DNA from: Pseudolabrys taiwanensis
GTDB lineage: Bacteria; Pseudomonadota; Alphaproteobacteria; Rhizobiales; Xanthobacteraceae
NCBI RefSeq assembly: GCF_003367395.1
Contig: NZ_CP031417.1
Span: forward strand, 4,985,501 to 5,049,500
Direction: 5' to 3'
Length of the DNA stretch: 64,000 nt
Shown: one piece after another, positions 17,972 through 63,453 of the stretch
Position numbering within the stretch: position 1 is the first letter of the stretch
Layout of the letters: each line of letters begins with the position of its first letter
Notes under the pieces: model-generated
Told to the model about the DNA's origin: nothing
The model's input: the letters and a program-made list of their open reading frames with translations, nothing else
Database searches by the model: none
Program-made: the position numbers and the translations under genes

Positions 17972-18241
17972 ATGGCGATCATTAATTATCGGGCGCCGTC
18001 TGAACTCTTTCCCAGCCGCAGCCGCAAATCTCGCCGCCCGATGGGCTACAAGCGTTTTCCGACCGCCGCCGAAGCGATCCGTTTCGCCATGGAGGAATTG
18101 CCGGCGGAATTGCTGCTCGGTGCCTATCTCGAGGTGGAAGAGCGCCGGTTCGACGGCAACGGCATCCGCGAGCTTTACGAGAGCGAAGATTATCCCTTGC
18201 CGCGCAAGGCGGCTAAGCCGGCCAAGGCCGCGGCCAACTAA
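17972..18241 (+). CDS. Conserved small protein of unknown function
   Basis: An 89-residue soluble protein with a good AGGAG ribosome binding site. It has a basic N-terminal part ([15 protein letters not shown]), a helix ([17 protein letters not shown]) and a Lys/Ala-rich tail ([12 protein letters not shown]). No domain recognised. The central '[14 protein letters not shown]' helix recurs in small Rhizobiales proteins, in my recollection. Confidence 0.7.
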
Positions 18242-22128: not shown

Positions 22129-22553
22129 CCGGAGGGTGCCGGAAGCAGAGATCCGGACCTTGTCCACGAGTCACCGTCCGCCCCGCCGAGGCGAGGGACC
22201 CATGGTGCCGTTTTCCGTTGGTGGCACCCACGCACGGTGCCATGGGTCCCGGCGCAGCGAAGCCGACAGCTGCGTCTTCAGCACTTCTTAACGCGAGATC
22301 CCATCCCCCCATTAACCCGCAATTGAGCGCGTCCGCAGCCGGCCAGACCGGGCGGAACCCTTTAACGCGGCGTTAGCCCGGGCTCGTCAAACTGTCGCAG
22401 ACCAACGATGTTCGCCTTCCCGGGCGACGCATTGCTGGTGTCGATGGTCGCGGGTTGGGTCAACCGACTTCCAATAACTTCCAGGACGAATGCCTCGGCG
22501 CATGCACGCACCGAGTCGATAACGTGTGACATAGAGATCGGTCGGACCGGCAG
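22129..22553. other. Intergenic region upstream of the giant repeat gene, with a long hairpin
   Basis: 425 bases with no supported gene. A 16-pair hairpin (two wobbles) forms between 22195-22210 (GGGACCCATGGTGCCG) and 22235-22250 (CGGTGCCATGGGTCCC). The rest is the presumed promoter and leader of the giant repeat gene; I could not pick out a convincing promoter. The ribosome binding site of that gene is weak (AGAG about 14 bases before the ATG). Confidence 0.5.
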
Positions 22554-25500
22554 ATGGCATTCTCCATTTCTTTGCTCAGCCCGCGGCAGATCTCCGGGCT
22601 CACCACGACCGTCATCGCCGGTCTCACAACCACCCAGATTTCCGAACTGACGACGACGCAGGCCGCCGCGTTGACCGCGACCCAGGTCAACGCGATGGAG
22701 TCGACCGACCTCCAGTATTTGGCGAGCACGCAGGTCGCCGCGCTGTCGGCTTCGGTCATCAGCCATCTGCTTACGCTCCAGCTTCAGACTTTCCTCGACA
22801 CCCAGATCGCCGCGCTGACCGCGACGCAGGTCAGCGCGCTGACCGCGACCGAAATCGGCGCGCTCTCGTCGACCGAGCTTCAGGGCCTGACGACCACGCA
22901 ATTCAATGCGCTCAGCGGCCGGCAGCTCGGCGCGCTGACGACCACGGCGCTCGGCAATTTCTCGACCACGCAGATCGCCTCGCTCTCGACCGCGCAGTTG
23001 CAGGGCCTCACGGCGGCACAGCTCAACGCCGTATCCACCGACGTGCTCGGTGCCGTCGACCTGACCAAGCTGTCGAGCGTCCAGCTTCGAAGCCTGAGCA
23101 CGACGACGATCGGCAACCTGTCGGAAACGCAGGTCTCGACCTTGACGTCGACGCAGGTCGGTCTTCTCAGCGCGGCGCAGATCGGCGCGCTGTCCACGAC
23201 CGAAATCCAGGCGTTCACGACCACCCAGTTCGACGCGCTGACCAGCCGCCAGCTTGCCGGCCTGACGTCGACGGCCCTGACCGATTTCTCGACCACGCAG
23301 CTCGGCGCTTTCTCGACCACGCAGGTGCAAGGCCTGACCGCCGCGCAGCTCAGCGCCGTCTCGAGCGACGTTCTCGATGCGATCGACGTGACCAAGCTGT
23401 CGAGCATCCAACTGCGGGGTCTGTCGACGACCGCCGTCGGCAACCTGACGGACACCCAGGTCGGGGCATTGAGCGGCAGCCAGATCGCGTCGCTGACCGC
23501 CGTGCAGCTCGGCGTGTTGTCTTCGACCGAGCTCCAGTCCTTCTCGACCACGCAATTCAGCGCGCTGACCACGACGCAGCTTCGCGGCCTCTCCACCACG
23601 TCCGTCGGCAATTTCTCGACGACGCAGATCGCGGCGCTGTCGACGACGCAATTCCAGGGTCTGACCACGGCCCAGATCAACGCGCTGTCGAACGCCGCCT
23701 TGGATGTCCTCGACATCACCAAGGCGACCACGGCGCAGATCGCCGGCCTGACGACGACGACGTTCGGCCAATTGAGCGACACGCAGATCGCCGCGCTCAG
23801 CGCCGCGCAGGTCGGTGCACTGACGGCGGCCGAAATCGGCGCGCTGTCGTCCACGGAGATTCAGGGCTTCACCACGACGCAGGCGAGCGCGCTGACCTCG
23901 CGGCAACTCGGCGGCCTGACGAGCACGGCGCTCGGCAACTTCTCGACGACCCAGATCGCCGCGCTGACGACAACGCAGGTCCGCGGCCTGACGGCGGCGC
24001 AGCTCAACGCCGTCTCGACCGATATTCTCGGCGCCATCGATCCGACCATGCTGACCACCGGTCAGTTCGTCGGGCTTTCCACGACCACGATCGGCAATCT
24101 GACGACGACGCAGGTCGGCGCACTGGCCGGGACGCAGGTCGCGGCGCTGAGCACGGCGCAGCTCGGCGCGCTGACCTCGACCGAGATCCAGGCGTTCACA
24201 ACCGCCCAGTTCGGGGCGCTGAGCAGCCGGCAACTCGGCGGGCTGACCACGACCGCGCTCGGTAATTTCTCGAGCACCCAGATCGGCGCGCTCACCATCA
24301 CCCAGTTCCAGGGTCTGACGACGACGCAGATCAATTCGTTGTCGACCGACGCGCTGGACGCCGTGGATCTCACCAAGGCCGCGACGCCGCAGATTAGGGG
24401 CCTCACGACCACGACCATCGGCAACCTGACGGAAACGCAGGTGTCGTCGCTGACCGCGGTGCAGGTCGGCGTGCTCACCGCCGCGCAGCTCGGGGCGCTG
24501 TCGTCGACCGAGATCCAGGGCTTTTCGACTGCCCAGTTCAACGCGCTGACCGCCGCGCAATTGCGCGGTCTCACGACCTCGGCGGTCGGTAACTTCTCGA
24601 GCACGCAGATCGGCGCGCTCTCCACGACGCAGTTGCAGGGCCTGACGACGCAGCAGCTCAATGCGCTGTCCAGCGACCTGCTCGACGCCGTCGACGTGAG
24701 CAAGGCGACCGTGACGCAGGTTGCCGGCCTGTCGACGACATCGATCAGCACGCTGACCGACGCGCAGGTCGCGGCGCTGAACGCGAGTCAGGTCGGCGTG
24801 CTGACCGCGACGCAGCTCGGGGCGCTGTCCTCGACCGAGATCCAAGCGTTCACGACGACGCAGTTCAATGCGCTGAAGGGCAGCCAGATCGGCGGCCTCA
24901 GCACCACCGCGCTGAGCAATTTCTCGACCACGCAGATCGGTAGCCTCGCGACGACACAGGTGCAGGGGCTGACCGTGGCGCAGCTCAATGCGGTGTCGAG
25001 CGACATTCTCGATGCGCTCGACCTGAGCCGGCTGTCGGCGGGGCAGCTGACCGGCCTCAACACCACGGCGATCGGCAATCTGGCCGAAACGCAGGTCGCC
25101 GGTTTGGCCTCGACGCAGGTCGCCATCCTGACTGCCTCGCAGCTCGGCGCGCTGTCGTCGACCGAGATCCAGGCGTTCACGACGACGCAGGCCAATGCGC
25201 TGACCTCGGCGCAGATCCGCGGCCTGACCACCACTGCGATCGGCAACTTCTCGAGCACGCAGATCGGCGCGCTGTCGACCGGCCAGTTGCAGGCGATCAC
25301 CACGACCCAGCTCAACTCGCTCTCGGCCGATCTGCTGGATGCGGTCGATGTCACCCGCACGACGACGACGCAGGTCGCCGGTCTGTCGACCACTGCGATC
25401 GGCCTCCTGACCGAAGCGCAGGTCGCGGCGTTCAGCTCGACGCAAGTCGGCCTCTTGAGCGCGGCGCAACTCGGCGCGCTGACCTCGACCGAAATTCAAG

Positions 25501-27707
25501 CCTTCACCACCACGCAGGCGAACGCGCTCAAGGCGAGCCAGATCAGCGGCCTCTCGACCACCGCGATCAACAACTTCTCGAGCACACAGGTCGGCGCTTT
25601 CGCCACCACGCAGTTGCAGGCGCTGACATCGACGCAGCTCAACGCGCTGTCGACCGATCTGCTCGATGCCATCGATCTCACCAAGGTCACCACCGGCCAG
25701 GTCGCCGGCCTGTCGACGACCGCGGTCGGCGATTTGAGCGAGGCGCAGGTCTCGTCGTTGAGTTCGACGCAGGTCGGCGTTCTGTCCGCCGCGCAACTCG
25801 GCGCGCTGACCTCGACCGAGATCCAGGCCTTCACCACGACGCAGTTCGACGCGCTGAAAGCGAGCCAGCTCGGCGGCCTGACGACCACGGCGCTCGGCAA
25901 CTTCTCGAGCGACCAGATCGGCGCACTGTCGACCACGCAGTTGCAGGGCCTGACGACGACGCAGCTCAACGCGCTGTCGTCCGACTTGCTCGACGCCATC
26001 GACGTGACCAAGGCGACGGCCGGCCAGATCGCCGGCCTGTCGACGACAGCGGTCGGCCTGCTGAGCGAAACGCAGGTCGGCTCGCTGCTGACCTCGCAGA
26101 TCTCGCGCCTGTCGGCGGCGCAGATCGGCGCGCTGACCTCGACCGAGATTCAGGCCTTCACCACGACGCAGGTGGGCGCCTTCACCGCGGCGCAGCTCGG
26201 CGGCCTGACGACCACGGCGCTCGCCAATTTCTCGAGCGACCAGATCTACGCCCTCAGCACCACGCAGGTGCAGGGCCTGACGACGACGCAGCTCAATGCG
26301 ATCGACACCGAGCAGTTCCAGTCGATCGATGCCGCCAAGCTCTCCTGGAATCAGGTGCGCGGCCTGAGCACGACGGCCATCGGCGAACTGGACGAAGAGC
26401 AGATCGGCGATCTGACCAGCTCGCAGATCGCGCTGTTGTCGACGACGCAGATCGGCGCCATGGCGTCGACGCAGGTGCAGGCCTTCTCGACGACGCAGGT
26501 GAACGCGCTGACGGCGCGCCAGCTCGGCGGCCTGACGACCTCCGCCATCGGCCTGTTCTCGAGCGATCAGATCGCCGCGCTGACCACGGCGCAGGTGCAG
26601 GGTCTGACCGCCGACCAGCTCAACTCGTTGACGACCGACGTGCTCGACTCCGTCGACGTCACCAAGGTGACGACGACGCAGGTCGCCGGCCTGACCACGA
26701 CCGCCTTCGGCGCTTTGAGCGAGGAGCAGATCGCCGCGCTGACCACGAGCCAGATCGCGAGCCTGTCGGCCGACCAGATCGGCGTCCTGTCCGAGACCGA
26801 GGTCGGCATCCTCAGCCCCGACCAGATCGGCGCGCTGACCGCGACGCAGCTCGGCGACCTGACGGCCGGCGCGCTCGACCTGTTCTCGAGCGACCAGCTC
26901 GCGTCGCTGTCGACGACGCAGCTGCAGGGCCTGACCACCGATCAGCTCAACGGCCTGTCGACGGTCAAGCTCGACGCGCTCGACCTCAGCAAGGCCTCGA
27001 CCACGCAGATCGCCGGCCTGACGACGACGGCGATCGGCGCGCTCGCCGAAGCACAGGTCGCGGCGCTCACCACGGATCAAGTGGCGAACCTCACCGCCGA
27101 CCAGATCGGCGCGCTGACGACGACCGAGATCGGCAATCTCACCGCCGATCAGTTCGGCGCGCTCACCGGCACGCAGTTCGGCGGCATGACGGACACGGCG
27201 CTCGGCATGTTCTCGAGCGACCAGCTCGGCGCGCTCAGCACGTCGCAGCTGCAGGGCCTGACCACCGATCAGCTCAACGGCCTGTCCACCGACATGCTCA
27301 ACGCGCTCGACGTGAGCAAGGCGTCGACGACGCAGACCTCGGGCCTCACGACCACGGTCATTTCGCAACTGACCGAAGGCCAGATCGGTTCGCTCACCGC
27401 CGATCAGGTCGCGAACCTGTCGGCCGGTCAGGTCGGCGTGTTCACGACGACCGAGATCGGCAACCTGACCGCCGATCAGGCCGGCGCGCTGACCTCGACG
27501 CAGATCGCGGGCCTGACGACGACGCAATTCTCGTCGCTGTCGGCTTCCGCCGGCATCCCGTCGCTGAGCGTCGCGGCGATCGCCGGCATCAGCGTCGACG
27601 ACATCAACGCGCTGACCACCGAGCAGGGCAACGCCTTCACCCAGCCGCAGATCGACGCCATGAGCAACGATCAGTTCTTCGCGCTGCTCAACGTGGTAAC
27701 TGCGTAG
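22554..27707 (+). CDS. Giant LTTTQ octad-repeat protein, 1717 residues
   Basis: One uninterrupted gene whose product is almost wholly 8-residue repeats of the form (A/G)-L-(T/S)-(T/S/A)-(T/S)-Q-(I/V/L)-x, about 200 copies. Thirteen octads plus one 5-residue unit (as in AVDLT or AIDVT) form a 109-residue supermodule. The same module landmark begins at 23028, 23355, 23682, 24009 and so on to 27279: 14 marks exactly 327 bp apart with no indel. Each octad carries an S/T-x-x-Q/E helix-capping box, so short helices stacked in a solenoid are likely; that fold is inference. No signal peptide or transmembrane helix is evident, I saw no cysteine, and there is one tryptophan (KLSWNQVRGL). The C-terminus is non-repetitive (SVAAIAGISVDDINALT ... 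FFALLNVVTA). Function unknown; a secreted adhesin or filament is possible but no secretion genes adjoin. Confidence 0.9.
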   Translation: MAFSISLLSPRQISGLTTTVIAGLTTTQISELTTTQAAALTATQVNAMESTDLQYLASTQVAALSASVISHLLTLQLQTFLDTQIAALTATQVSALTATEIGALSSTELQGLTTTQFNALSGRQLGALTTTALGNFSTTQIASLSTAQLQGLTAAQLNAVSTDVLGAVDLTKLSSVQLRSLSTTTIGNLSETQVSTLTSTQVGLLSAAQIGALSTTEIQAFTTTQFDALTSRQLAGLTSTALTDFSTTQLGAFSTTQVQGLTAAQLSAVSSDVLDAIDVTKLSSIQLRGLSTTAVGNLTDTQVGALSGSQIASLTAVQLGVLSSTELQSFSTTQFSALTTTQLRGLSTTSVGNFSTTQIAALSTTQFQGLTTAQINALSNAALDVLDITKATTAQIAGLTTTTFGQLSDTQIAALSAAQVGALTAAEIGALSSTEIQGFTTTQASALTSRQLGGLTSTALGNFSTTQIAALTTTQVRGLTAAQLNAVSTDILGAIDPTMLTTGQFVGLSTTTIGNLTTTQVGALAGTQVAALSTAQLGALTSTEIQAFTTAQFGALSSRQLGGLTTTALGNFSSTQIGALTITQFQGLTTTQINSLSTDALDAVDLTKAATPQIRGLTTTTIGNLTETQVSSLTAVQVGVLTAAQLGALSSTEIQGFSTAQFNALTAAQLRGLTTSAVGNFSSTQIGALSTTQLQGLTTQQLNALSSDLLDAVDVSKATVTQVAGLSTTSISTLTDAQVAALNASQVGVLTATQLGALSSTEIQAFTTTQFNALKGSQIGGLSTTALSNFSTTQIGSLATTQVQGLTVAQLNAVSSDILDALDLSRLSAGQLTGLNTTAIGNLAETQVAGLASTQVAILTASQLGALSSTEIQAFTTTQANALTSAQIRGLTTTAIGNFSSTQIGALSTGQLQAITTTQLNSLSADLLDAVDVTRTTTTQVAGLSTTAIGLLTEAQVAAFSSTQVGLLSAAQLGALTSTEIQAFTTTQANALKASQISGLSTTAINNFSSTQVGAFATTQLQALTSTQLNALSTDLLDAIDLTKVTTGQVAGLSTTAVGDLSEAQVSSLSSTQVGVLSAAQLGALTSTEIQAFTTTQFDALKASQLGGLTTTALGNFSSDQIGALSTTQLQGLTTTQLNALSSDLLDAIDVTKATAGQIAGLSTTAVGLLSETQVGSLLTSQISRLSAAQIGALTSTEIQAFTTTQVGAFTAAQLGGLTTTALANFSSDQIYALSTTQVQGLTTTQLNAIDTEQFQSIDAAKLSWNQVRGLSTTAIGELDEEQIGDLTSSQIALLSTTQIGAMASTQVQAFSTTQVNALTARQLGGLTTSAIGLFSSDQIAALTTAQVQGLTADQLNSLTTDVLDSVDVTKVTTTQVAGLTTTAFGALSEEQIAALTTSQIASLSADQIGVLSETEVGILSPDQIGALTATQLGDLTAGALDLFSSDQLASLSTTQLQGLTTDQLNGLSTVKLDALDLSKASTTQIAGLTTTAIGALAEAQVAALTTDQVANLTADQIGALTTTEIGNLTADQFGALTGTQFGGMTDTALGMFSSDQLGALSTSQLQGLTTDQLNGLSTDMLNALDVSKASTTQTSGLTTTVISQLTEGQIGSLTADQVANLSAGQVGVFTTTEIGNLTADQAGALTSTQIAGLTTTQFSSLSASAGIPSLSVAAIAGISVDDINALTTEQGNAFTQPQIDAMSNDQFFALLNVVTA
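23028..27605 (+). repeat. Tandem 327-bp (109-residue) supermodules
   Basis: Fourteen in-frame tandem copies inside the giant repeat gene. The landmark codons (Ala/Ser/Gly then Leu/Val, Ser/Thr, ... Asp, ending ...Leu-Asp-Ala-x-Asp) start at 23028, 23355, 23682, 24009, 24336, 24663, 24990, 25317, 25644, 25971, 26298, 26625, 26952 and 27279. Copies are diverged at DNA level but keep identical length. The last copy decays into the C-terminal domain. Confidence 0.9.
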
Positions 27708-27818
27708 TCGCGGCGGCGCAGGCCGGGGTGACCGGCGCCCTTCGCCTGACCAAGACCTATTGACCCGCGCGGGCCGCCTTGGCCCCATAGCCGCGGGTGG
27801 GGTCTTGGGGGGCGGGCG

Positions 27819-28937
27819 ATGACGATCCTTCAACGGACATTGCGGACCGTTGTGCTGTGCGGCGCCGCCGGTTTGGCGACGGCCGGCGCGGCGGCAGCGG
27901 CGGTCGAAACCGAGAAGCCGGTTGCCGGCCAGCAGGTGCGTTTCGCCCAGGGCACCTGGTCCGGCGTGCCGCAGCTGCGCGACGGCAAAGTGAGCCAGTG
28001 CGTGCTCGTCTCGCTGCGCCCGCGCAACGACACGAGCGGCACGGTCGAGACGCGGCTGAGCCTCGCGATCGGCCGCGGCGCAGGCTTCGCCTTTGGCCTT
28101 GGCGACAAGGCCTTGCCCGGCGAGCGCGTGATGGACGACGAGGCCGAGATCGTTCTCGACGAGGGCGCATCGATACCGGCCGTCGGCTTCGACGTGGTGC
28201 CGGCCGCCTTCGCCTTCCATCCCGGCGACGCCGCGGCGGTGCTCGCCGGCCTCGCGACGGCCAAGACAGTGCGGCTGCGTTCGGCCGGCGCCGGCATCGA
28301 CACCGGCGCGATCGCGCTTGACCTGCCGCCCGCGGCGCTCGCCTGGCTGATCGCTTGCGGCAACACGTTCGCCATCGCCATCGACCGGCCGACCGATCCG
28401 AAAGCGCCCGAACTGCCGGCGCCGCGGCCGCGTTCGCCCGAAATCGCCTCCGGCCGGCCGACGGCCGCCGGTCCCGCCGGCATCGAGGACAAACAGAAGA
28501 TCAGCGGCTGGGACGCTTCCGAACTGCGCGGGCCCGACGGCAAGGTCGTCATCTGCGTCATCCGCCGCCATTACGTCACTGGCGCGGGGAAGGACGCGCG
28601 GCAATTCGGCACCTTCCTGATGGCGAGCCGCACCAAGGGCCTGATCATGATGCTGAAGGACTCGGGCCTCAAGCAGCGCGGCGGCGAGACGATCGACGCC
28701 ACCTTGTCGTTCGGCGGCAAACCGTTCACCGGCTTCACCGCGCAGATGCTCAGCGCCGACGAGATCGGCATCTTCCCGCAACACGGCCTCGCGCTCGCGC
28801 GCGCGCTCGACGATGCCGAACGCTTCAGTTTCAAATCGAAGATCGGCGGCATGGAGTTTCCGGTGCAGGGCGCGGTGTCGTGGCTGCGCGCCTGCGCGCG
28901 CCGGCACGGCTTCGGCTTCGAGGCGCCGTCGCCGTAA
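27819..28937 (+). CDS. Exported two-lobed protein of unknown function
   Basis: A 372-residue protein with a signal peptide (TVVLCGAAGLATAGAAAAA). It appears to hold two similar lobes joined by a Pro-rich linker (KAPELPAPRPRSPE). Each lobe has an early cysteine (residues about 56 and 245) and a late one about 112-123 residues further on, in parallel endings AALAWLIACGNTFAI and GAVSWLRACARRHGF. The pattern recalls the invasion-associated IalB-like fold, but I cannot confirm this. It starts 111 bp after the giant repeat gene on the same strand, so the two may be co-expressed. Confidence 0.75.
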   Translation: MTILQRTLRTVVLCGAAGLATAGAAAAAVETEKPVAGQQVRFAQGTWSGVPQLRDGKVSQCVLVSLRPRNDTSGTVETRLSLAIGRGAGFAFGLGDKALPGERVMDDEAEIVLDEGASIPAVGFDVVPAAFAFHPGDAAAVLAGLATAKTVRLRSAGAGIDTGAIALDLPPAALAWLIACGNTFAIAIDRPTDPKAPELPAPRPRSPEIASGRPTAAGPAGIEDKQKISGWDASELRGPDGKVVICVIRRHYVTGAGKDARQFGTFLMASRTKGLIMMLKDSGLKQRGGETIDATLSFGGKPFTGFTAQMLSADEIGIFPQHGLALARALDDAERFSFKSKIGGMEFPVQGAVSWLRACARRHGFGFEAPSP

Positions 28938-29726
28938 GCGCGGCGGCGGTGTGAGCTGGATGCGATTGTCAAACAGCGCGGCGTTTTTCCCGCAGGCCGC
29001 GTCTCGACGGATGAGGCCGATGTGTCCGCCTTATCCTTCGAGACGCCACGCTGCGCGTGGCTCCTCCGGATGAGGCTTCGCAGCGCGCATAGCTTCGCCG
29101 TCCCTGTTGTTTGTCCGGGCCCGGGGTGGCCCGCCTTCCTGAAGTCCCCGCACCCAGGGGGTCCGGGGGAGTCGACCCCCGCATAAAGCAGGGGAGACGG
29201 CGCGCCGGGCGGCGCGACGGTCTTCGTCCTGTGCCGCGCTCCGTTCATCACGAAGCGCGGGCGCCCTCCGGCGCGCCGTGGCGGCGTCTTCCAACGGCGG
29301 GCCGCGCTTTCAACGGAGGCTTCATCAAGGCCGAAGCACTCGGTGTCAGCGAGCTCCTCGCAGCGGGTCGTAGTGCCCGCGGGCGGGGACCGCCGCCGCT
29401 CGGGTGCGAGGAGGCGCGTTTTTCCTCCTCGGGCGCGAGCGCCGCATCCCACCCCGTCCTCGTAACGCCTCGCGACGACGCCCCTTGGTGGGTGGGATGG
29501 AGAGGATTATGATCTTAAATGCGGAAAGGTCAATAGTCCTAATTACGAATTTGATACTAGATAGCGGGATTTTCCACCGCTTTTCTCATAAGCCATTGTA
29601 AAGGCAACATAAATTAGAAATATAACGGAAAAAGTCAGGCCGTGATCGGCCTATTCTTGCAATTAGGCGGTATCGGCGTTATTCGTGTTTCCAGGGGTGC
29701 GAATCGTCGCGCGCTTTGGTGAACCT
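28938..29726. other. Gene-poor region with repeat elements and an AT-rich end
   Basis: About 790 bases without a gene I can support. 29034-29074 holds a palindromic element (TTCGAGACGCCACGC...GCGTGGCTCC...GATGAGG). 29110-29510 is a very GC-rich block with short inverted repeats (for example GGGGGAGTCGACCCCC); translations of it look like artefacts. From about 29510 the sequence turns markedly AT-richer up to the start of the DNA-binding protein gene, marking the left edge of the accessory island. Confidence 0.5.
29034..29074. repeat. Palindromic repeat, TTCGAGAC/GGATGAGG family
   Basis: Contains stem GCCACGC (29045-29051) / GCGTGGC (29055-29061) flanked by CCTTCGAGAC and CTCCTCCGGATGAGG. Relatives lie at 31089-31162 and 42814-42852. 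Confidence 0.6.
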
Positions 29727-30479
29727 ATGTCGGGCCGTAAGACCGTATCGGATATGACGCTCGAAGAGGTGCGCGCTGAGCGCATTCGGGTGACCCGAGA
29801 ATATCTCGACCTTCTTGAAGAGAAGGAAAGAGAACTTGTGAGCGCGCCCGCCCCGACGCTCCCGGCGACCGAAATTACCCCTGATGATGTGCGGCTGGTT
29901 AAATGGCCGCTCCCCGACGCCATGCCTGTCGTCTTGGCTCTGAGCGACGAACCACAGACCGCCAAGGAGATCGTGGCTACTCTGAAGCGCGCCGGCCGGG
30001 AATTTGAGAGTGACAATCCGGTGCGCGCTGTCCGCGCCGCTCTCAAAAAGGCGATGGCTACAAACCACGATGTCTACACGGCTGGATGGGCCAAATATTA
30101 CCTCAGGTCGAAATCGACTCGTAAAACAAGGCAAATCGAAAAGGCGTTTGCGAAAACTAATGGTACTGGCGGCCGCTCAACCAAAGAGCACGGACAGCGT
30201 ACTGCGGAAGGTATTGCGAAGCGCCGTAGCCAGGGACTCGAAAAGTGGGGACGCGATAAAAAAGCTACTCCCGAAGTAGTCGAGCGCGCCAAAGAAATGA
30301 TGCGAGGCGGCATGACTTTGAGAGAGACTTGCCGCGCCTTAGGCATCGCAATTCCGACGCTTTATCAGTATGGCGTCAGGCAGCGAGAACTGAAGAAAGA
30401 AGGGCAGTTACGTCAGAAGGAATTAGCTCTGGGCGACAAGACGGACGGAGACAACGTCGTCCGATTTGCCAAGGGCTAA
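29727..30479 (+). CDS. Predicted DNA-binding protein with two HTH segments
   Basis: A 250-residue basic protein. An N-terminal helix (TREYLDLLEEKERELV) could be a coiled coil. Residues about 65-125 (PVVLALSDEPQTAKEIVATL ... AGWAKYYLRS) resemble a winged helix of the HARE-HTH kind. After a basic, Gly/Ser-rich linker, ERAKEMMRGGMTLRETCRAL plus GIAIPTLYQYG is a resolvase/Hin-type helix-turn-helix. Base composition is clearly less GC-rich than the flanks, suggesting transfer. The ATG at 29727 lacks a strong ribosome binding site; an upstream GTG at 29685 is possible. Function unknown; regulator or part of a mobile element. Confidence 0.7.
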   Translation: MSGRKTVSDMTLEEVRAERIRVTREYLDLLEEKERELVSAPAPTLPATEITPDDVRLVKWPLPDAMPVVLALSDEPQTAKEIVATLKRAGREFESDNPVRAVRAALKKAMATNHDVYTAGWAKYYLRSKSTRKTRQIEKAFAKTNGTGGRSTKEHGQRTAEGIAKRRSQGLEKWGRDKKATPEVVERAKEMMRGGMTLRETCRALGIAIPTLYQYGVRQRELKKEGQLRQKELALGDKTDGDNVVRFAKG

Positions 30480-30685
30480 AAAGAAAGCGCCCGCCGATTT
30501 TTCGGAGAGCGTTTCTCAATATCCCGATTGCATTGGGGCCGTGCATGCCCGTTGCAGTCGGCAGCCGGAATAGTCCGGCACGGCTTCTCTTCGCGGAGGG
30601 GTCACAACTGCCCGGCGGTCGACACGGCGACCGTCGGGAACTGGAGGTGCAACATGCAACCCATAATAGGGTGACATGAAGAACC
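30480..30685. other. Non-coding stretch inside the accessory island
   Basis: About 200 bases with no gene seen. Short inverted repeats such as GGCGGTCGAC...GGCGACCGTC occur near 30612-30636. Confidence 0.4.
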
Positions 30686-30991
30686 GTGGCACGTCGTCGT
30701 CTCACCGGCGGCGTGTCACGGCCTCTATATACTAAGTACTTGAAAAGATTACAAGAGTCGCGTGTTTGGGACACGTTTCCGTCGCAAAATCAAAGACTTC
30801 TGATTTGTGATCCGGGCTTTGAAGCGAACCCAAAACCGGAGAAAACTAAGAACGACTTGCGGACATATCGAAAGGGCTCTCCGAGACCGCTGAAAGAGAT
30901 TCCAACGCAGTTTGGTGATGAACGTCGCGTCGTTAAGAAGCTACCTAAACGCGCCGCCTCTTCCGCCAGAGCAGAACCGTTTCACGCGTAA
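30686..30991 (+). CDS. Doubtful small basic protein
   Basis: A 101-residue open frame from a GTG, with a strongly basic product (KYLKRLQESRVW, RRVVKKLPKRAASSAR). No ribosome binding site, no recognised domain, and the region is AT-richer than the flanks. It may be a real island gene or a chance frame. Listed because nothing else explains this stretch. Confidence 0.25.
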   Translation: MARRRLTGGVSRPLYTKYLKRLQESRVWDTFPSQNQRLLICDPGFEANPKPEKTKNDLRTYRKGSPRPLKEIPTQFGDERRVVKKLPKRAASSARAEPFHA

Positions 30992-31173
30992 GAAAAATCA
31001 GGCTCAGTGAGATTGTCGATACGTGAGGCGCTTTATCTTCACCGCTCTTTACGGTGAGCGCCGCGCGTTGCCCGGGGGCCGCCCCATCTTTCGAGACGCA
31101 TCGCCATAGTGCTTTGAGGACGCGCGTAAACGCGCTGATGGCGATGCTCCTCAGGATGAGGCGGGGAGGGGCT
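30992..31173. repeat. Palindromic element downstream of higA-like gene
   Basis: Holds a hairpin CACCG-CTCTTTA-CGGTG (about 31040-31056) and a larger inverted repeat, GCATCGCCAT pairing with ATGGCGATGC, enclosing an inner GCGCGT/ACGCGC pair, within 31089-31162. The outer TTCGAGACGC and CTCCTCAGGATGAGG match the family at 29034 and 42814. Confidence 0.55.
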
Positions 31174-31470
31174 TTAGGCCGTGTCGGTCACGCGCGTGAT
31201 CTTGGCGAGCTCTTTGCCGATCGCGCGTTCGGCCGTCTCAACGTCGAAACGGTTTTGCAGATTGAGCCAAAGCTGCGTCGAGGTGCCGAGGGCCTTGCTC
31301 AGACGCAGCGCGGTGTCGGCGGTGATGCCCGTCGTCTCGGCGGCGATGCGCGCGACGCGCGTGCGCGGCACGCCCATCGCCTTCGCCAATGCGCCCGGAG
31401 AGAGCCCGAGCGGACGCAAGAACTCCTCGCGCAGGATTTCGCCGGGGTTGAAGGAGGTTGAAATCTCAAT
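31174..31470 (-). pseudogene. HigA-type antitoxin, 5'-damaged or with non-standard start
   Basis: Encodes the HigA/VapI-type Xre antitoxin domain: FNPGEILREEFLRPLGL, HTH AKAMGVPRTRVARI, then GITADTALRLSKALGTS and QLWLNLQNRFDVETAE. The conserved domain begins by about 31456, but there is no ATG or GTG between the in-frame stop at 31507-31509 and the domain. The only usual alternative start, TTG at 31419, would drop the NPGEILREEF part. The HigB toxin gene expected just upstream is absent and replaced by the unrelated 240-residue gene. I read it as a decayed antitoxin, or less likely one using a rare start such as ATT at 31470 or TTG. Confidence 0.6.
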
Positions 31471-31506
31471 TGTGGCGTCGTGCCATTGCTGGTTTTGTCG
31501 ATGTGC

Positions 31507-32229
31507 TCAAAGCTTCCAGTTCCACATCGTGAGTTTTTGAAGTGCCTCTTCTAAACTGCGTAAGTGGTGGTCTTTGTCTTCTATGCCGATACCGATGATG
31601 GTCGGCATGTGGCTGACTGCCAGCGCGCGATCGCTTACGGCTCGCTGACGGGCGGCGATCACATGCCTCCCAATCATCAGCTCGATCCCATTTTTGTGGC
31701 GCTCTCGGCCGGTGGCAATCACTCTCCGCACTATTGCGAGCACCTCATTCCCGAAATCGATAGCTTCTTGCCGGGTGGGAATGCGTCCTTGATGGATTAC
31801 TTGGTTTCTAAACTCCACGTTCTGGCGGGTGAGCATCGGCGGAGACTCATATGTCTCTTGGAAGAATAACAATGCATAGGCACCGAGTTGTCGCTCCGAA
31901 TGTTTAGAGAGGGATTTCCAAAACTCCTCCACTTCGGAAGCGACGTGACCTGTAGCTAGCAGTGCTGCCCACACAAAGAACTCAAAAGTTCGCTCCAGAC
32001 TAGAAGCGAATGAACTCACAGCCTCGCGGAAATATCCGTCAAGAATGGCGCAAGCCCCTATGTCGAATAGAAGTTCAAATTTCTGCTGTTGGAGTATAGT
32101 GTAAGATCGATGTCCTTTCGGGCATTGAACGTCATAAAGTCCGCTATCTTCGATCTGAGCTGTGGCGATAAAGCGCGCGCTCGATACGTCGATTCTCATG
32201 CATTCAGCGCAGACAAGCGGCATTCGCAT
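31507..32229 (-). CDS. Zinc-ribbon protein with HEPN-like helical domain
   Basis: A 240-residue protein. The N-terminus has a zinc-ribbon-like set, LVCAECMRI and YDVQCPKGH. The rest is helical and includes FASSLERTFEFFVWAALL and, near residue 145, FRNQVIHQGRIP, which has the R-N-x3-H (R-x4-H) pattern of HEPN nucleases and HEPN-like proteins. Composition is much less GC-rich than the neighbours. Its stop lies upstream of and in frame with the HigA remnant. A defence or RNA-targeting role is inference from the HEPN-like motif and island context only. Confidence 0.6.
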   Translation of the reverse strand: MRMPLVCAECMRIDVSSARFIATAQIEDSGLYDVQCPKGHRSYTILQQQKFELLFDIGACAILDGYFREAVSSFASSLERTFEFFVWAALLATGHVASEVEEFWKSLSKHSERQLGAYALLFFQETYESPPMLTRQNVEFRNQVIHQGRIPTRQEAIDFGNEVLAIVRRVIATGRERHKNGIELMIGRHVIAARQRAVSDRALAVSHMPTIIGIGIEDKDHHLRSLEEALQKLTMWNWKL

Positions 32230-63180: not shown

Positions 63181-63453
63181 TCAGCGCACGCCGATGCGGT
63201 TCACCGGTCCGCCGAGATTGACGCCGCGCGGCGCTGGCCGCAGGACCACGCCAGGCGCGGCGACACAGCCTTTCGGGTAGCCGATATACTTGCAATACAC
63301 GACCGGCATCGGCTGCAGCACGACGCCGGGCTTGGCCACGCAGCCTTTCGGGTAGCCTACGTATTTGCAGTACACCGCCGCCTCGGCCGGCGGCGTGCTC
63401 GACAGCACCATCGCGCCGGCGATGAGACCGAACACTGCGATTGTCTTCTTCAT
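63181..63453 (-). CDS. Exported protein with two YCKYxGYPKGC repeats
   Basis: A 90-residue protein. Signal peptide (TIAVFGLIAGAMVLSSTPPAEA), then two near-identical 22-residue units that start VYCKYVGYPKGCVA (27-48) and VYCKYIGYPKGCVA (52-73), each with two cysteines. Very common in Bradyrhizobium-type genomes. Function unknown. GAGGGG precedes the ATG at 63453. Confidence 0.8.
   Translation of the reverse strand: MKKTIAVFGLIAGAMVLSSTPPAEAAVYCKYVGYPKGCVAKPGVVLQPMPVVYCKYIGYPKGCVAAPGVVLRPAPRGVNLGGPVNRIGVR

Follow-up and report, generated by a model that had tools for sequence, protein, structure and literature searches.

Tandem octads of the pattern [LF][ST]xxQ[ILV]x[AG] are represented in Pfam by PF20080 (ALTTAQ repeat), a 38-residue model for which we found no described function, and no paper naming the family was found in the open-access PMC literature. 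For large Ser/Thr-rich proteins that are glycosylated in the cytoplasm before export, one described system is that of HMW1C, which works with two-partner secretion. HMW1C and FlmG are both soluble enzymes that combine TPR and glycosyltransferase parts, and the gene of each lies next to that of a large exported substrate rich in Ser and Thr; the pairs of ALTTAQ and GT41 genes described here share this arrangement, with a TPR-GT41 protein of putative activity and substrate as the ALTTAQ neighbour. According to excerpts of its report (PMC7591256), FlmG glycosylates flagellins in the cytoplasm before export and represents a new GT class. On the structural side, the abstract-level text of a 2025 preprint (PMC12822642) presents a "tightly wound alpha-helical screw" as new, which, from name, length and description, appears to be PDB entry 9zem (HeliScrew4); no HeliScrew paper was found in the open-access PMC literature.

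The window, which is the whole stretch of 64,000 nucleotides from Pseudolabrys taiwanensis analysed here, contains an ALTTAQ-repeat gene with a single stop codon (Table 1). The sequence-only reading of this DNA had described about 200 copies of an eight-residue unit, interrupted once per module by a five-residue unit, in modules spaced by exactly 327 bp without indels. Segmentation of the protein yielded 204 octads, 14 five-residue units (pentads) and one single-residue insertion, and the recomputed spacing bore out the earlier count: pentad 1 begins at residue 168, 13 of 13 spacings are 109 residues, and there are zero indels across 4251 bp. The amino-acid self-identity is maximal at lag 109 (0.594), followed by lags 218, 327 and 436, with a value of 0.316 at lag 8. 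The repeat finder TRF, a check proposed earlier, likewise recovers a period of 327 (22822-26711, score 2436). Ser and Thr account for 29% of the residues. Within the octads, positions 1 and 6 are invariantly hydrophobic, position 2 is Ser/Thr at a frequency of 0.90 and position 5 is Gln/Glu at 0.77, while Ser/Thr occupies positions 3 and 4 at 0.66 and 0.59, respectively (0.83 and 0.81 in a paralogue described below).

Table 1. Positions of the repeat gene and its parts in the window
Feature	Position	Strand	Description
ALTTAQ-repeat gene	22554..27707	+	1717 aa, 204 octads; other domains: none found
N-terminal stretch	22554..23054	+	7-residue lead, then 20 octads; pentad-free, ends at first pentad
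13 modules, 109 aa (327 bp) apiece	23055..27305	+	1 pentad + 13 octads each
Pentad 1 of 14	23055..23069	+	x-D-x-[TSA]-[KRM] type; predicted 3-residue helical turn
Pentad 14 (last)	27306-27320	+	pentads spaced 327 bp
Octads between last pentad and single-residue insertion	27321..27560	+	
C-terminal cap	27561..27704	+	inserted Ser (residue 1670), ~5 octads, final predicted helix 12 residues

PF20080 matches the whole window protein with 739.6 bits (gathering cut-off 26.4, E 7.1e-229), which corrects the earlier statement that no named family was recognised. That reading had also considered a match to a described family of established function; the named family was found, and an established function for it was not. 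PF20080 covers the same octad over the whole protein, whereas the 109-residue module, the putatively phase-restoring pentad and the pitch of 3.42 octads are additions of this analysis. No NCBIfam model matches the protein. Leucine-rich repeat identity was rejected, as LRR_EndoS was the sole match of this kind and lies below its cut-off (E 0.17, 12.6 versus 27.9 bits). The Pfam models DUF4351 and CAAP1 exceed their cut-offs (60.3 and 59.1 versus 25 bits); they may be cross-matches with short helical octads of the ALTTAQ type.

PF20080 occurs in 3 of 40 relative genomes (own genome counted) and in 6 of 241 genomes of a class sample. Among named genomes, the 80 highest-ranking of 193 confirmed stretches comprise 73 distinct ALTTAQ loci. 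Most are from Alphaproteobacteria, while a few carry titles of Betaproteobacteria, Pseudomonas, Verrucomicrobiota and others; as these loci come from the top of the ranking, all counts over them are skewed towards close relatives. ALTTAQ sequences also occur in 57 plasmid records, ten of which (one without annotation) were examined for neighbouring genes. A tblastn search of phages gave no match to the ALTTAQ protein. In BFVD, two predicted proteins of uncultured Caudovirales (A0A6J5P167 and A0A6J7X2V1) show local matches to the structural model, with an identity of 20-24% and low TM-scores. Family members are currently labelled in records as ice nucleation protein or heme utilization protein, labels that are probably misleading.

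The 109-residue module, for which a search of related genomes had been suggested, recurs in a paralogue and in relatives of the same type. The paralogue, a second ALTTAQ gene in the own genome, encodes 2697 residues (L011:3729-11822); the protein contains 23 pentads, and each of its 22 spacings measures 109. Relatives of the 109 type measure 953, 1280, 1608 and 1717 residues, and the differences correspond to whole modules, give or take one or two residues. The spacing is 109 throughout in the window gene, L011, L027, L029, L030, L031, L033, L034 and L035. L026 and L054 each have one 101/117 pair, the sum of which is 218, where the segmentation chose another unit as the pentad, and L028 is broken past the fourth pentad. 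In the nine proteins whose N-terminus is complete (window, paralogue and seven relatives), pentad 1 lies at residue 167 or 168. The inserted single residue sits 46-47 residues from the end in nine segmented proteins with a readable 109-type C-terminus, and the C-terminal cap is the best-conserved part among these relatives.

Downstream of the paralogue, a gene for a 686-residue TPR-GT41 protein (PF13844, E 4.5e-84) is followed by an FkbM-type methyltransferase gene and, ~3 kb further, by tRNA-Trp. A phage-type integrase (PF00589/PF13102) adjoins the same locus (L011:1246-14977 and 18166-18241; own genome C1:604500-624400), which is possibly an island. Among the 73 loci, GT41 occurs at 48, within 2 kb at 44; it lies downstream on the same strand at 39 and divergently upstream at 6, with a median gap of 186 bp. 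In ten of the 25 GT41-negative loci, the DNA available downstream is shorter than 2 kb. Nine of the ten plasmid stretches likewise carry GT41. No other neighbour family comes close to this frequency at the 73 loci, the next being generic ABC ATPases at 17 loci and epimerases at 11, once the shadows that the GT41 gene casts on the reverse strand and as fragments are set aside. The association also holds in the class sample, which was not chosen by neighbours: GT41 is present in five of six ALTTAQ genomes, compared to 80 of the 235 others (p 0.022 in a Fisher test, own genome included). The two genes lie within ~6 kb of each other in G000, G189, G214 and G270, the listed matches of G075 are on separate contigs, and G164 is the ALTTAQ genome in which no GT41 was found.

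Genes of two export routes accompany minorities of the relatives. Type I secretion genes (ABC and HlyD) were found at 8 of 73 loci, with ABC in four of the ten plasmid stretches; the flagellar hook gene FlgE was found at 4 of 73 loci and in one plasmid stretch. On plasmid A of Cereibacter sphaeroides 2.4.1, the repeat gene is divergent from an O-linked acetylglucosamine transferase gene, and the whole set further includes a peptidase-domain ABC transporter, HlyD, a methyltransferase and sulfotransferases. The ALTTAQ gene of Rhodovastum atsumiense lies beside FlhB, FliR, FlhA, FliQ, FliE, FlgC, FlgG and FliI; in Pseudorhizobium flavum, its neighbours are FlgE and two flagellins. In the Rhodovastum plasmid stretch (L105:1729-8839), the flagellar export genes adjoin ALTTAQ and GT41 and no flagellin is annotated; this set might be a dedicated exporter. 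A type I secretion substrate would carry a conserved, uncleaved signal at its C-terminus; the C-terminus is strongly conserved and, in 48 of 64 members of the family, fits a single loose pattern, which may or may not reflect such a signal. No paper linking GT41 with type I secretion was found in the open-access PMC literature.

Our preferred reading, to which we assign a probability of about 60%, is a screw-shaped rod rich in Ser and Thr that receives O-linked sugars in the cytoplasm and is then exported; glycosylation and export are inferred from these neighbours of relatives. The Ser/Thr residues at octad positions 3 and 4 would sit at exposed helix starts and are plausible sugar sites; that at position 2 would cap the helix and is therefore probably not free. 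In relatives and for the second copy, the neighbouring TPR-GT41, an enzyme of the O-GlcNAc-transferase type, most likely glycosylates positions 3 and 4 in the cytoplasm. The rod would then leave by type I secretion or flagellar export, depending on lineage, and serve at the cell surface as a rod or sheath that is stiff and coated with sugars. For this likely extracellular product, the roles of adhesin, sheath and matrix element are alike conceivable.

A whole-module rod might instead size a cytoplasmic structure as a scaffold or ruler, with the GT41 of relatives acting in regulation and not for export. No signal peptide is visible in the window protein sequence, and no secretion genes lie near its gene or in the stretch of the paralogue, which has GT41 adjacent but no ABC/HlyD. 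In addition, the type-I-like ABC matches of the own genome are only ~32% identical to the transporter of the family. Nevertheless, dedicated type I secretion or flagellar genes adjoin the repeat gene in other lineages, and sugar-modifying genes (epimerase, UDP-galactopyranose mutase and sulfotransferase) accompany those relatives, which makes a purely intracellular role unlikely.

Against the reading of a glycosylated and exported rod stands that no GT41, secretion or flagellar gene lies within ~10 kb on either side of the window gene; its closest relatives (L027, L028 and L030) have no such neighbours either. On this reading, the window copy, which does not adjoin GT41 as the paralogue does, would be served in trans by the enzyme of the paralogue. 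Such modification in trans is possible: the own genome has three GT41 genes, and G033, G041, G042 and G043, which carry a window-type or related copy, have a full-length GT41 (52-71% identity) that is flanked by ALTTAQ octads. Full-length GT41 is absent from G009 and G040, which carry a window-type copy, so that another enzyme, or none, must be assumed there.

The window copy could also be a functionless leftover, with the GT41-linked gene of 2697 residues as the working copy. Its modules are less constrained than those of the paralogue (pN 0.256 versus 0.093); besides, the window copy has no conserved neighbours. However, its open reading frame is intact, the register is exact, the C-terminus is highly conserved, and L027 in another genome has the same length (1717 aa) and phasing, so we consider a leftover rather improbable. 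The divergence of the window modules stated earlier is real, with a mean nucleotide identity of 0.698 (range 0.624-0.789, 78 pairs of 13 modules). Their synonymous divergence (pS 0.422) approaches the 0.523 obtained with codons redrawn from the gene's own usage; the modules are thus near saturation and therefore old, in agreement with the earlier exclusion of recent slippage. In the paralogue, a pN of only 0.09 accompanies a similarly diverged pS of 0.406, and module length and sequence are kept there by selection rather than by recent copying.

Structure prediction by AF2 agreed with the long alpha-solenoid that the sequence-only reading had held plausible. Three consecutive modules were predicted with a pLDDT of 96.4 and a pTM of 0.86, from an alignment of 37 three-module segments that all came from the window and the named-genome loci. 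For 39 octads, the model has 38 helices that are at least four residues long, and every pentad forms a helical turn of three residues. The C-terminal 300 residues were predicted with a pLDDT of 95.8 and end in a helix of 12 residues. The predicted helices start directly after octad position 2, which fits the helix-capping box proposed earlier for each octad: every L-[S/T]-x-x-Q-h-x-[A/G] unit would form a single short helix, with Ser/Thr at position 2 and Gln/Glu at position 5 as its caps. The abstract of a study on beta-solenoids (PMC11795689) describes AF2 as overconfident on perfect repeats; as this may apply to repeats in general, independent support for the fold matters.

Such support comes from 9zem, the best PDB sequence match, with E-values of 1.8e-13 for the protein and 2.1e-17 for the profile, the latter aligning without gaps over 101 residues. 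HeliScrew4 shares the octad pattern and its register with the window protein, but has 120 residues and no pentads, compared to 1717 residues with pentads. The next PDB matches of the profile are LRR proteins at E 1.5e-7 and weaker, so that short repetitive matches are not very specific. Structural similarity search with Foldseek against the PDB gave no TM-score above 0.38 among the 50 matches listed per model, nor did the viral fold search among its 50; 9zem is not among the Foldseek matches listed, and the library may not include it. The best of the listed PDB matches were mesothelin, armadillo and importin-alpha, alpha-solenoids that are likewise superhelices of short helices but remain at TM-scores of 0.38 or below. 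Based on the model, the window protein is probably one continuous alpha-helical screw.

The winding of the octads was analysed in 62 family members outside the 109 type by comparing every lag. The excess of octad identity is highest at lags of 17, 24, 34, 48, 10, 31, 7 and 14 octads. In the pooled spectrum, the maximum lies at 3.425 octads per turn and has a height of 0.0141, compared to 0.0005 for the largest of 20 octad-shuffled controls. Individual peaks fall between 3.3 and 3.55 octads in 42 of the 62 proteins; the other 20 lie at 2.0 (eight), 2.19-2.44 (five), 3.29 (one), 5.75 (one) and 8.47-8.70 (five), and the peaks near 2.4 and 8.5 are at the expected harmonic positions of 3.42. For 56 of the 62 proteins, the best lag deviates by no more than 0.1 turn from an integer number of turns, which is true of only 0.197 of all lags. 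The corresponding randomisation (0/2000) assumes independent lags, although sums and multiples of a period recur, and the shuffled-octad control and a held-out fit therefore carry more weight.

The held-out fit, on 51 non-Rhizobiaceae proteins without the 109 type, gave 3.429 octads per turn. At this pitch, two modules that were not in the fit come close to whole turns, the 17-octad module common among Rhizobiaceae with 4.96 and the 109 residues with 3.97. Thirteen octads alone make 3.79 turns, and 14 full steps, with the pentad counted as a whole one, make 4.08, the pitch being taken from sequence. The pentad thus looks like a phase corrector that plausibly restores the phase of the screw. 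As a truncated helical step, it would lift the module from 3.79 to 3.97 turns and present the same face in each module, which would explain both the unvarying module length and the change of copy number by whole modules only. With ~3.42 octads (~27 residues) per turn, the whole protein would wind ~60 times. The geometric reason suspected earlier for the constant module length is supported by this phase analysis, and the earlier interpretation as a whole is partly supported. The fold prediction, periods, capping pattern and phase rule, like the gene neighbourhoods, are computed.

These regularities bear on a further possibility, namely that the protein is a mucin-like, disordered and glycosylated polymer with no screw, and the AF2 model an artefact of repetition. 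The Ser/Thr content and the documented overconfidence on beta-solenoid repeats would suit such a chain, but a strict amphipathic octad with helix caps, invariant hydrophobic positions and exact phase, a crystallised relative (9zem) and a pitch common to unrelated modules make it quite improbable. Recent slippage or an assembly artefact, to which long tandem repeats are prone, is hardly credible given the near-saturated divergence of the modules and the same architecture at a second locus and in independent genomes, and given that the own genome is a single contig.

Taken as one proposal, that ALTTAQ modules are sized by a winding rule, making up whole turns of ~3.42 octads each and including a pentad where octads by themselves would miss, and that a dedicated GT41 glycosylates the rods before type I or flagellar export, the account is tentative, with somewhat less than even odds. 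The phase rule would provide a directly testable tie of repeat arithmetic to superhelix geometry, as heptads do for coiled coils. If HeliScrew4 is the screw of the preprint, nature already employs that fold at giant scale, and what its designers present as outside known structure space would be a common natural building material. The neighbourhoods would offer candidate substrates and a test system for the many bacterial enzymes resembling O-GlcNAc transferases.

Several further features of the window were recorded. A 2181-residue open frame (22362-28907, minus strand) is antisense to the entire repeat gene and most likely results from its repetitive, GC-rich codons. Similar shadows occur in L011. 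The gene at 27819-28937, 111 bp downstream of the repeat gene, encodes a 372-residue protein with a signal-peptide-like start and no Pfam or NCBIfam match; it was rejected as a partner, with no relative in 39 other genomes and none at the 73 loci. Further downstream, positions 29001-32000 have a GC content of 0.56-0.58, compared to ~0.65 in the surroundings, and possibly represent an inserted stretch, in which a resolvase-like HTH gene (29685-30479, E 6e-5) scores slightly below the Pfam cut-off. Near the end of the window, a 75-bp tandem repeat is present in two copies (63236-63389).
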